This document shows positions 40,463-45,393 of a stretch of 50,871 nucleotides of DNA, in pieces. Both the position numbers and the translations under genes were made by a program. This DNA is from Candidatus Gastranaerophilales bacterium (GTDB taxonomy: Bacteria; Cyanobacteriota; Vampirovibrionia; Gastranaerophilales; Gastranaerophilaceae), in contig CALUPV010000012.1 of NCBI GenBank assembly GCA_944322745.1, forward strand, positions 1 through 50,871, in the 5' to 3' direction. The notes under the pieces were generated by a model. That model made no database searches, had not been told where the DNA came from, and saw only the letters and a program-made list of their open reading frames with translations. The stretch's first letter is position 1, and each line of letters starts with the position of its first letter.

Positions 40463-41188
40463 ATGAGCACAAGAAATATAATAGGTTTTTGGGGTTATCC
40501 TAATCCTGACTTGATAGATAAATATAAAAAATTATATCCAAATGCAATATGGATTGATTTTGATATTGATTATGGACTAACAAAACAAGATATATTGCCT
40601 GAATCATATTGTGCGATAATTAAGAACATTATTAACTGTGCGTTTTATTATAAAAATCAATTATTGGTTATTTTAGCACCTATAGGTAAAGATAAATGTG
40701 ATAGCGGTTGGTTCGCATATGAGATTTTGAAAGATATGGGATATCCTGTTGTTTCTTCTGTTTTTGAAGAAACAAAATATAAAAAAGAAGTTAAGATATC
40801 TACTTCAACTCTTCCTTTAAGACAAAAAGTTGAACTGATTACAAAAGGAATATATGAACCGCAAGTATTAGAACTTGAACAATGCCGTGCAAAATTTGGC
40901 TTTTGGGGGGTACCGCCTAATGATTTATCGATATTAGAGTTGTTTCCCGATGAAACTCATTTATATGGCTGGACAAGATGTGTTGAAGCTATGGCTCCTG
41001 CTGATATTGAACTTGAAATGTATATAGATATTAATGTTCCCACTGTATTTTATTCGCAGTCTTTTTGCTCAAAGGCACAGATGGCAAAATATTTGGCTGA
41101 TAAATATAATGGATTATATATTGATATTGATGATACTGTTACTAATTCTACAAAAGCAAAGATTGAGGCCTTTTTGAGGTTGCGATGA
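40463..41188 (+). CDS. Unknown cysteine-containing partner of an ASKHA activator-like ATPase
   Basis: 241 residues; not recognised. Cysteines are at 50, 59, 79, 141, 173 and 202. The start (IGFWGYPNPDL) recurs at ~145-155 (FGFWGVPPNDL), so the protein is probably an internal duplication. SYCAIIKNIINCAF, then LLVILAPIGKDKCDSG, faintly recalls the cluster-binding segments of 2-hydroxyacyl-CoA dehydratase D-component proteins, but this is weak. Its stop overlaps the next ATG by 4 nt, so the two proteins are made together and may form a complex. Transcribed from a leaderless promoter. Confidence 0.6.
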   Translation: MSTRNIIGFWGYPNPDLIDKYKKLYPNAIWIDFDIDYGLTKQDILPESYCAIIKNIINCAFYYKNQLLVILAPIGKDKCDSGWFAYEILKDMGYPVVSSVFEETKYKKEVKISTSTLPLRQKVELITKGIYEPQVLELEQCRAKFGFWGVPPNDLSILELFPDETHLYGWTRCVEAMAPADIELEMYIDINVPTVFYSQSFCSKAQMAKYLADKYNGLYIDIDDTVTNSTKAKIEAFLRLR

Positions 41189-41889
41189 ATAAAACAGATA
41201 TAGTATTAGATGCCGGTACAACTTGGTCAAAAATAATAGAAAGAAATTCATCTGATTTAATGAATGGATATAAGAATTTTATTGTTAAATCAGAAAATGG
41301 GTTTAATTATTATGTGTTGCCATCTTCAAAATTAAAAGAAATGAAAATTAAATTTGATAAAGCGACGGGGCATATGTCTTTAAGTATGCTAAAAAATAAA
41401 GAAGACTATGAAAATGAAGTTATTGCATTGATTCAGGGATTTAGAAAAAAAATTACAGAAGATGCAATTATCTTGGATATGGGAAGTCGAGATTCTAAAT
41501 GGGCACAATATAAAGATGGTAATTTTAAAGATTTGGATTGGAATAATTCATGTTCCAGTTCAACAGGTGCAACGATTGAAATGCTTTTAAAATTTTATAA
41601 TATAAAACTAGAAAATTTAAAAGTATCTGATGAAAAATATGTTATAACTTGCGGTATTTTCGGCTTAGAAAAAATAATGGACGATATTGCAAAAGGTGTA
41701 AACTCCGAAATGGCAGTTTCAAAGTTTATCCATGGTATTGCTTTTAATGCTTGGAATTTTGCTAAAAAACCGGCTAAATTATATTTATCGGGCGGATTTT
41801 GTGAAAATAAATGTTTCATTGATTCTTTAAGTAAATACTGTGAAGTAATTCCATTGGGGCGGTTTTTACTTTGTGAAGGCTTGTTTTAA
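41185..41889 (+). CDS. BadF/HgdC-like ASKHA ATPase (dehydratase-activator family)
   Basis: 234 residues with the ASKHA ATP site: phosphate-1 LDAGTTWSK (8-16), ATGH (60-63), phosphate-2 LDMGSRDSK (97-105) and adenosine LSGGF (201-205). C123 (NNSCSSSTG) and C156 (VITCGIFG) match the positions of the two cysteines that hold the bridging 4Fe-4S cluster in HgdC-type activators (CAAGTG; SSTC). Those enzymes inject an electron into a dehydratase at ATP cost. No recognisable dehydratase is nearby, and the protein is a little short. Overlaps the preceding gene by 4 nt. Confidence 0.75.
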   Translation: MNKTDIVLDAGTTWSKIIERNSSDLMNGYKNFIVKSENGFNYYVLPSSKLKEMKIKFDKATGHMSLSMLKNKEDYENEVIALIQGFRKKITEDAIILDMGSRDSKWAQYKDGNFKDLDWNNSCSSSTGATIEMLLKFYNIKLENLKVSDEKYVITCGIFGLEKIMDDIAKGVNSEMAVSKFIHGIAFNAWNFAKKPAKLYLSGGFCENKCFIDSLSKYCEVIPLGRFLLCEGLF

Positions 41890-41936: not shown

Positions 41937-42389
41937 ATGAGTATAAATTCTGTAAGTTTTGGTCGTACTATAAAAGTTAATGCACCATTATCTGTTGCAA
42001 AACATGCTGTTGATTTGATTAATACTATTCCGCAAAGAAGAGGGGAATCAAGAGTTCAACAACAATTAAAAGATATATTCTATGATACAGATAAAGGCAG
42101 AGCAAGAGCTGTAGCTACTAATGGTGAATCAGGAGATGTATATATAGTTAGCGGTATGGCTGCTAATGATGTTGGTTTACTTATTAAAGATAGAAACTTC
42201 CATATAGATGAGGCCAAAAAGACATATGGAGAAGACTGTTACACATATGAATGTATTAAAGAAGCTGAAGATGAACGTTATACGGATTTGTTAACGCTTG
42301 TATTATTTGAAACAGAAGAACCGATTGAGCTAGATATTAATTACTCTGGCAGAAAAAATCGTATTAAATCTATTGATATCAAAATATAA
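41937..42389 (+). CDS. Unknown protein with N-terminal SINSVSFG tag
   Basis: 150 residues. The tag MSINSVSFGRTIKV matches that of the gene at 2276. The rest is charged, with DVYIVSGMAANDVGLLI resembling VEIYITGKDVEKVKT of that gene, so a distant common fold is possible. No signal or membrane helix. TAGGAG lies 6 nt before ATG 41937; a terminator follows at once. Confidence 0.7.
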   Translation: MSINSVSFGRTIKVNAPLSVAKHAVDLINTIPQRRGESRVQQQLKDIFYDTDKGRARAVATNGESGDVYIVSGMAANDVGLLIKDRNFHIDEAKKTYGEDCYTYECIKEAEDERYTDLLTLVLFETEEPIELDINYSGRKNRIKSIDIKI

Positions 42390-45204: not shown

Positions 45205-45393
45205 CTAATCCAGCAAAGTTTCTAATAAATTTGCGTTCTTTATTGCCAGTGCATTTTCCTTAACTTTTTGTTTATGTATATATGTTCTTAAAGCTTCACG
45301 AATCAATTCACTTCTTGTACGATTTTCACCTTCGGCAACTTCATCAATTCTTGTTAAAAACTCTTCGGGCATTGAAATTAAAACTCTAGCCAT
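45205..45393 (-). CDS. Ribbon-helix-helix (CopG/MazE-like) regulator
   Basis: 62 residues. ARVLISMPEEFLTRIDEVAE provides the DNA-binding strand and first helix; RTRSELIREALRTYI is the second helix. Such proteins are CopG-type repressors or MazE-type antitoxins. AGAGGAAT precedes ATG 45393. No toxin gene is adjacent on either side, so it may be an orphan antitoxin or an independent repressor. Confidence 0.88.
   Translation of the reverse strand: MARVLISMPEEFLTRIDEVAEGENRTRSELIREALRTYIHKQKVKENALAIKNANLLETLLD

Follow-up and report, generated by a model that had tools for sequence, protein, structure and literature searches.

Two small overlapping genes of a Gastranaerophilales genome, here called A and B, raise the question of whether they encode an ATP-driven electron-injection system and, if so, what kind of protein the activator-like B would serve. 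Few systems are known to inject electrons at very low potential at the expense of ATP. The genes lie in the window, which is the whole stretch of 50,871 nucleotides that was analysed (contig C12 of genome G000, 2.04 Mb), and form a co-directional two-gene unit on the + strand with 475 residues in total (Table 1). Both open reading frames and their 4-nt ATGA overlap were found where a preliminary description of the locus had put them. That description called A and B fused, whereas the genes overlap and are separate open reading frames. The exact overlap varies among relatives, with an estimated A-B gap of -10 to +49 in 62 linked loci. The closest named records to A, at 95-98% identity, are Candidatus Gastranaerophilales MAGs, including Candidatus Avigastranaerophilus faecigallinarum, which places the genome among the gut-living relatives of cyanobacteria. 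A literature search, which had most subscription papers outside its reach, returned no description of the pair. One paper contained both '2-hydroxyglutaryl-CoA dehydratase' and 'Melainabacteria' (PMC5972617) and, in the portion of its text that was available, was unrelated to A/B.

Table 1. Features of the A/B locus, in window positions; BzdN counterparts are given by order of structural elements.
Feature	Position	Strand	Description	Conservation or basis
Protein A ORF	40463..41188	+	241 aa; predicted compact two-domain alpha/beta protein	ORF list, AF2, Foldseek, conservation
GFWG motif, first copy	40484..40495	+	strand 1 and loop of N-terminal half	half-half hhalign
A Cys50	40610..40612	+	between strand 2 and helix 51-62; candidate counterpart of BzdN C73	114/114
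A Cys79	40697..40699	+	between strand 3 and helix 80-91; candidate counterpart of BzdN C100	114/114
GFWG motif, second copy	40898..40909	+	C-terminal half	half-half hhalign
A Cys173	40979..40981	+	short helix after strand 2, C-terminal half; candidate counterpart of BzdN C263, C293 as alternative	112/114
A Cys202	41066..41068	+	after strand 3, C-terminal half; candidate counterpart of BzdN C327	114/114
ATGA overlap	41185..41188	+	stop of A, start of B	sequence
Protein B ORF	41185..41889	+	234 aa; diverged HgdC/HadI/DCCP-R-type activator ATPase, ASKHA fold	TIGR00241, AF2, Foldseek
B motif DAGTTWSK	41209..41232	+	B9-16	conservation
B motif ATGH	41362..41373	+	B60-63	conservation
B motif DMGSRDSK	41476..41499	+	B98-105	conservation
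B Cys123	41551..41553	+	aligned with HgdC C127	89/89
B Cys156	41650..41652	+	aligned with HgdC C166	89/89
B LSGGF (201-205), then C-x3-C pair Cys206/Cys210	41785..41814	+		C206 89/89, C210 88/89

Protein B belongs to the activator ATPases

The conservation of B was assessed on 89 distinct sequences, which were obtained from 145 matches by removing duplicates and fragments shorter than 180 aa. The ASKHA motifs listed in the preliminary description, DAGTTWSK (which we take to be of the phosphate-1 type), ATGH, DMGSRDSK and LSGGF, were present as written. D9, G11, T12, K16, G62, H63, D98, G100-D103 and S202-G204 were each identical in 89/89 sequences, indicating that the ATP-binding motifs have been kept. 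C123 and C156, which had been said to occupy the places of the bridging-cluster cysteines, aligned with C127 and C166 of HgdC (1hux), as counted from the printed chain positions. These two HgdC residues are presumably the ligands of its bridging [4Fe-4S] cluster. Neither cysteine was lost in any of the 89 sequences, a loss that had been named in advance as speaking against an electron-transfer role. In archerases, the interface cluster is bound by two cysteines per monomer, as stated in the accessible part of a review (PMC11574389).

Profile searches and the structural model led to the same family. B of the window matched TIGR00241 (acyl-CoA dehydratase activase) at an E-value of 3.2e-12 and 46.5 bits, which is below the curated cut-off of 125.4, and gave a weak match to PF01869 (18.4 bits, below the curated cut-off of 31.5). 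All of the 23 B-family members scanned, window B among them, matched TIGR00241 at E<=0.001, and the PF01869 cut-off was passed by B of 6/38 relatives. When the B-family profile was compared with the PDB, the matches included 1hux (HgdC) at 3e-12, 4eht at 6e-10, 9gai_D at 4e-6 and 7yyl_E at 9e-6. Those at E<=0.01 comprised five distinct sequences (HgdC, HadI, MbdQ, DCCP-R and MbdP). B was predicted by AF2 with a pLDDT of 89.3, and the ten best Foldseek matches of this model in the PDB were activator chains, with 7yyl_E (DCCP-R) at the top (1.7e-14). Two of these ten, 9gba_D and 9gai_O, were counted as activators by title and length. Collectively, the TIGR00241 profile, the Foldseek matches and the bridging cysteines agree, and they identify B as a diverged member of the HgdC/DCCP-R-type activator ("archerase") family, in keeping with the HgdC/FldI-type assignment made earlier.

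A weak match of B to a beta-lactamase model (NCBIfam) was judged to be due to chance. B also carries the C206-x3-C210 pair (41800-41814), which is absent from the printed alignments of solved activators and may be a second metal site or a redox switch.

Predicted fold and conserved cysteines of protein A

Sequence methods gave no family for A. In the Pfam and NCBIfam models, A of the window had no match, including PF06050 (HGD-D), PF09989 (DUF2229) and NF040772 (DCCP). Comparison of A with HGD-D and DUF2229 by hhalign gave probabilities of 0.1-3.3%, none of them significant, and when 615 proteins were ranked with A by hmmsearch the best HGD-D/DUF2229 protein came only 20th. The A-family profile returned chance matches only from the PDB and no structure of the HGD-D family. 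PF06050 appeared at an E-value of 0.054 in 1/20 A members scanned; in a second set of 36 members neither PF06050 nor DUF2229 was listed, and unrelated families scored better there. NF040772, the model for the double-cubane anaerobic reductase, matched none of the A members scanned. Two other candidates were judged to be due to chance, namely shikimate kinase (weak matches in 13/36 members, best 0.0058) and PUB (weak match, best 0.00037, 36 members scanned). PADLOC gave no match for A or B, and there is thus no sign of a defence system. The viral contigs searched held no relative of A and none of YjiM, and the plasmids searched held no relative of one HGD-D protein of genome G003.

The predicted structure was more informative. 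The AF2 model of A (pLDDT 88.1, pTM 0.84) was compared by Foldseek with 350,542 PDB chains, and five matches were obtained at E<=0.001, all of them proteins that are served by activators. The top match was 9g87_B, a subunit of 3-methylbenzoyl-CoA reductase, and the others were 9gai_B of the same enzyme and 7yyl_A, 7yyl_B and 7yzm_A of DCCP:DCCP-R. The sixth match dropped to a probability of 0.35 and a TM score of 0.18. The superpositions of the five were loose (TM 0.53-0.58, rmsd 9.5-10.3), and the 50 Foldseek matches listed for A included no HadBC or BzdNO chain. A and B, each modelled on its own, thus resembled DCCP and DCCP-R, respectively, whose structure has been solved as a complex (7yyl). 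A partner with a known non-redox fold had been named beforehand as evidence against the redox reading; the strong PDB fold matches of A were all redox partners of activators.

The model of A consists of two halves with four strands each and with four and five helices of at least 4 residues. According to the available text of PMC11971306, BzdN and BzdO each have an N-terminal and a C-terminal domain in which four parallel strands are flanked on each side by two helices, and a middle helical domain that contributes to the CoA channel. The halves of A are similar to the two terminal domains. In the model of A, a single helix (119-128) separates the strands of the first half from those of the second, and there is no room for a middle domain of this kind in 241 aa. 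As modelled, A therefore lacks the CoA-channel domain. Its predicted fold resembles, in a loose superposition, the HGD-D / DCCP / benzoyl-CoA reductase subunit fold minus the middle helical domain. Because none of the sequence methods was significant, homology of A to the HGD-D family is argued from the fold; with no match to the HGD-D sequence model and no middle domain, A was not filed as HGD-D. The internal duplication proposed earlier (GFWGYP/GFWGVP) is real, with four strands per half and an E-value of 3.6e-5 (probability 71%) when one half was compared with the other by hhalign, but in sequence it is only local, covering 27 columns.

We then considered the cysteines of A across 114 distinct sequences, which remained from 172 matches after duplicates and fragments shorter than 200 aa had been removed. 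The six cysteines counted in the preliminary description are present (50, 59, 79, 141, 173 and 202), but only four of them are conserved. C50, C79 and C202 were invariant and C173 was missing in two sequences (L020 and L182), while C141 was found in 58/114 and C59 in 10/114. The conserved cysteines are spaced by 29 residues in both halves (C50-C79 and C173-C202). According to the part of PMC11971306 that was available, the [8Fe-9S] cluster of BzdN is bound by C36, C73, C100, C263, C293 and C327, and the [4Fe-4S]-OH2 cluster of BzdO by C95, C128 and C380. We placed the published BzdN ligand numbers on the printed BzdN sequence, and the assignment of A to BzdN is our own. By order of elements, the four conserved cysteines of A correspond to four of the six double-cubane ligands, and no counterpart of BzdN C36 or C293 was found in A. 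Among six HGD-D proteins compared, three cysteines and no others were invariant. Local hhalign pairings, all non-significant, put C50/C79 and C202 of A on invariant HGD-D cysteines. One non-significant alignment that pairs C202 sets C173 beside the place of BzdN C293, not C263.

Distribution and genomic setting of the pair

A was found in 36/38 relatives. B was reported in 38/38 and was present in its own form in 37, as the sole match in G036 is a canonical activator; G026, which is without A, has B at a contig end. In a phylum sample of 292 genomes, including that of the window (thresholds E<=0.001 for A and E<=1e-20 for B), A and B were each found in 49, and these were the same 49 genomes. 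Of the 16 g20 genomes among the DUF2229 matches listed, six had both A and B and ten had neither. Within this sample, A and B were present or absent together. The preliminary description had asked whether the pair is also kept as neighbours, and this holds in part. In a species collection, of which 80 of 419 confirmed loci were covered, A was followed by B on one strand at 62 loci and stood alone at 18, two of these being at contig ends. Of the 49 phylum genomes with the pair, on the other hand, 14 (all from genera g20 and g28) carry the two genes on separate contigs. Pairwise distances of A and B were correlated (r=0.93 over 88 loci, with 0/999 permutations as high), which reflects joint inheritance, as for any two vertically inherited genes, and does not show contact. 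G050, a genome outside the order, has both genes, so the pair either predates the order or has been transferred. Beyond the phylum, the survey was based on two peptide patterns only.

The locus had been described as being without a known dehydratase. This is true of the window and of most relatives, since full PF06050 (E<=1e-15) was found in 0/49 A/B genomes and, over the phylum sample, in 1/292 (G053, which is without A/B). It is not true of G003, one of the 38 relatives, which has A/B and also a true HGD-D gene pair beside an activator; nor does it take account of the diverged DUF2229/HGD-D-like proteins in 49/49 A/B genomes. DUF2229 was found in 135/292 phylum genomes, including all 49 with A/B, and it thus persists in 86 genomes without A/B. 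A separate canonical activator was present in 37/38 relatives, one of them truncated by a contig end. In the genome of the window, the canonical activator is on contig C2 and four DUF2229/HGD-D-like proteins are on C1, C5 and C10.

For the gene neighbourhood, 98 A loci were reduced to 42 representatives at 80% identity, and 41 of these were used (L178 was left out as its A had been missed by gene calling). A cluster of sodium:dicarboxylate symporters adjoined A in 9/41 loci, eight of them co-directional and upstream, and the five of nine members that were tested by Pfam were all PF00375. A YraN-like gene followed A in 7/41 loci, and the one of these seven that was tested was UPF0102. The remaining neighbours of A were assorted genes. 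For relocated B, ten loci were taken from the 14 genomes concerned, with B recognised by gene calling in nine, and the sole repeated direct neighbour noted was a YraN-like gene in four loci, as judged by its N-terminus. The neighbours of A at the 41 loci and of relocated B indicated no pathway or substrate and included no conserved third gene.

Several features of the surroundings can be added. The symporter lies directly upstream of A and co-directional with it at L133, L112, L060, L138, L145, L179, L120 and L113, and on the other strand at L117; it perhaps hints at a dicarboxylate or amino-acid substrate. In several genomes, A or B is followed by a small protein with a similar-looking N-terminus, made up of a short start and then an FxA/FxG-like motif (window 41937-42389, L143:4805-5218, L135:4779-5177 and L114:4763-5158), and that of the window had no family match above cut-off in Pfam or NCBIfam. 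The 62-residue protein at 45205-45393 of the window presumably resembles a ribbon-helix-helix (CopG-type) regulator.

A candidate mechanism and its alternatives

The preliminary description had suggested a minimal low-potential reductase. In favour of this, B is an activator-type ATPase, the strong fold matches of A are proteins that activators reduce, and the genes are present or absent together. Against it, the fold match of A is loose and its sequence link to HGD-D is not significant. On balance, we favour the reading that the pair is an ATP-driven redox system of low potential with two components, a miniature DCCP:DCCP-R or HgdC:HgdAB, to which we give a probability of roughly 0.6. From the family, motifs, cysteines and fold of B, the predicted fold and conserved cysteines of A, and the joint presence of the two genes, we infer how such a system would work. 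B would form a homodimer in which the C123/C156 pairs of both subunits hold a single [4Fe-4S] cluster between them, and ATP would be bound in the ASKHA cleft. In a complex with A, ATP hydrolysis would bend B and drive electrons singly onto A, which would take each electron on an Fe-S cluster located where its two alpha/beta domains form a cleft. The ligands of this cluster would be C50, C79 and C202, and C173 would be either the fourth ligand or a close neighbour. With no CoA-channel helical domain and only four of the six double-cubane ligands, A probably has a single [4Fe-4S]-type cluster and either a non-CoA substrate or a role as electron relay. A would then reduce the non-CoA substrate or pass the electron on. 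By analogy, the working principle would be like that of DCCP:DCCP-R and HgdC:HgdAB.

A more specific form of this proposal is put forward tentatively. A may be a minimal electron acceptor of archerases, smaller than any met in this work and pseudo-symmetric, with two cysteines of each half round one [4Fe-4S] cluster in a stripped-down or ancestor-like HGD-D/benzoyl-CoA reductase/DCCP fold. Together with its dedicated mini-archerase B, it would possibly be a separate class of ATP-driven reductase that acts on a non-CoA substrate and is widespread in Gastranaerophilales. If this is true, ATP-driven electron injection would here be carried out by a very simple machine, with two genes, 475 residues and no CoA-channel domain. 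It would reveal the minimum required of the fold, and it would point to low-potential chemistry, so far unrecorded, in gut bacteria. Both proteins are small enough to express, and the reading predicts the exact residues to mutate.

The pair could instead be an ATP-driven reactivation or maturation module, in which A is a docking or relay protein that hands the low-potential electron of B to another metalloenzyme and is not an enzyme with a small substrate of its own. With four near-invariant cysteines, a cluster in A could be fully ligated, with no site left open; the CoA-channel domain is absent, and the A/B genes travel without a pathway, all of which would suit a relay. However, no conserved third gene marks a target at the loci surveyed, and C173 is lost in 2/114 sequences while C50, C79 and C202 never are, which is what one would expect were C173 dispensable as a ligand. 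We consider this module unlikely.

It is improbable that B is an ordinary ASKHA kinase (e.g. type II pantothenate kinase-like) and no electron donor, with A as an unrelated Rossmann-type protein whose cysteines are structural or bind zinc. Pantothenate kinases do appear in the Foldseek list of B and A has no significant sequence link to any redox family, but the kinases come after the activators in that list, activator families and structures rank first for B by both sequence and fold, its bridging cysteines are invariant, and the only strong fold matches of A are activator partners. Slightly less probable again is that B serves as an additional activator of the genome's own DUF2229/HGD-D-like proteins, with A as an accessory. 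The presence of DUF2229 proteins in every A/B genome of the phylum sample would fit, but 86 of the 135 genomes with DUF2229 are without A/B, a separate canonical activator is nearly always at hand in the relatives, and A and B are absent together. That A is a diverged DCCP with a full [8Fe-9S] double cubane is very improbable, for although 3/5 of its strong fold matches are DCCP chains, it has four conserved cysteines against the six ligands of BzdN and is not matched by NF040772.

The favoured redox reading can be set against the known systems. DCCP:DCCP-R (7yyl/7yzm) is similar in that DCCP-R is the best fold match of B, the fold of A matches DCCP and the bridging cysteines are kept in B. 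It differs in that A has 241 aa compared with about 420 in DCCP, no middle helical domain and four instead of six conserved cysteines, with no significant sequence similarity. The physiological role of DCCP is described as unclear in the available text of PMC11971306, which names acetylene, azide and hydrazine among its reported small substrates. With the dehydratases and their activators (HgdC/HgdAB and HadI/HadBC), the likeness is in B, whose alignments with HgdC and HadI take in the ATP motifs and the two bridging cysteines. A, in contrast, is one small protein that has no CoA-channel domain, and HadBC was not among its 50 listed fold matches. Class I benzoyl-CoA reductases (Bzd/Mbd) supplied the top fold match of A, and its four cysteines are at corresponding places by element order, but the A/B pair has a single partner protein where these enzymes have two kinds of subunit, makes do with one activator where they use two, and has no CoA-channel domain. 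TudS desulfidase, according to the part of PMC11971306 that was available, is a reduced offshoot of this fold family with a single cluster, as A may be; it has one domain of the family subunit whereas A has two, and A comes with an activator. The DUF2229/HGD-D-like proteins of the same genome are HGD-D-related too, and the models that match them do not name their function. They are different proteins from A/B, have loci and a canonical activator of their own, and in 86/292 genomes occur without A/B. In the genome of the window, the loci of this activator (L049, on C2) and of these proteins (L050, L051 and L052, on C1, C5 and C10) are possibly a second, separate archerase-type system.
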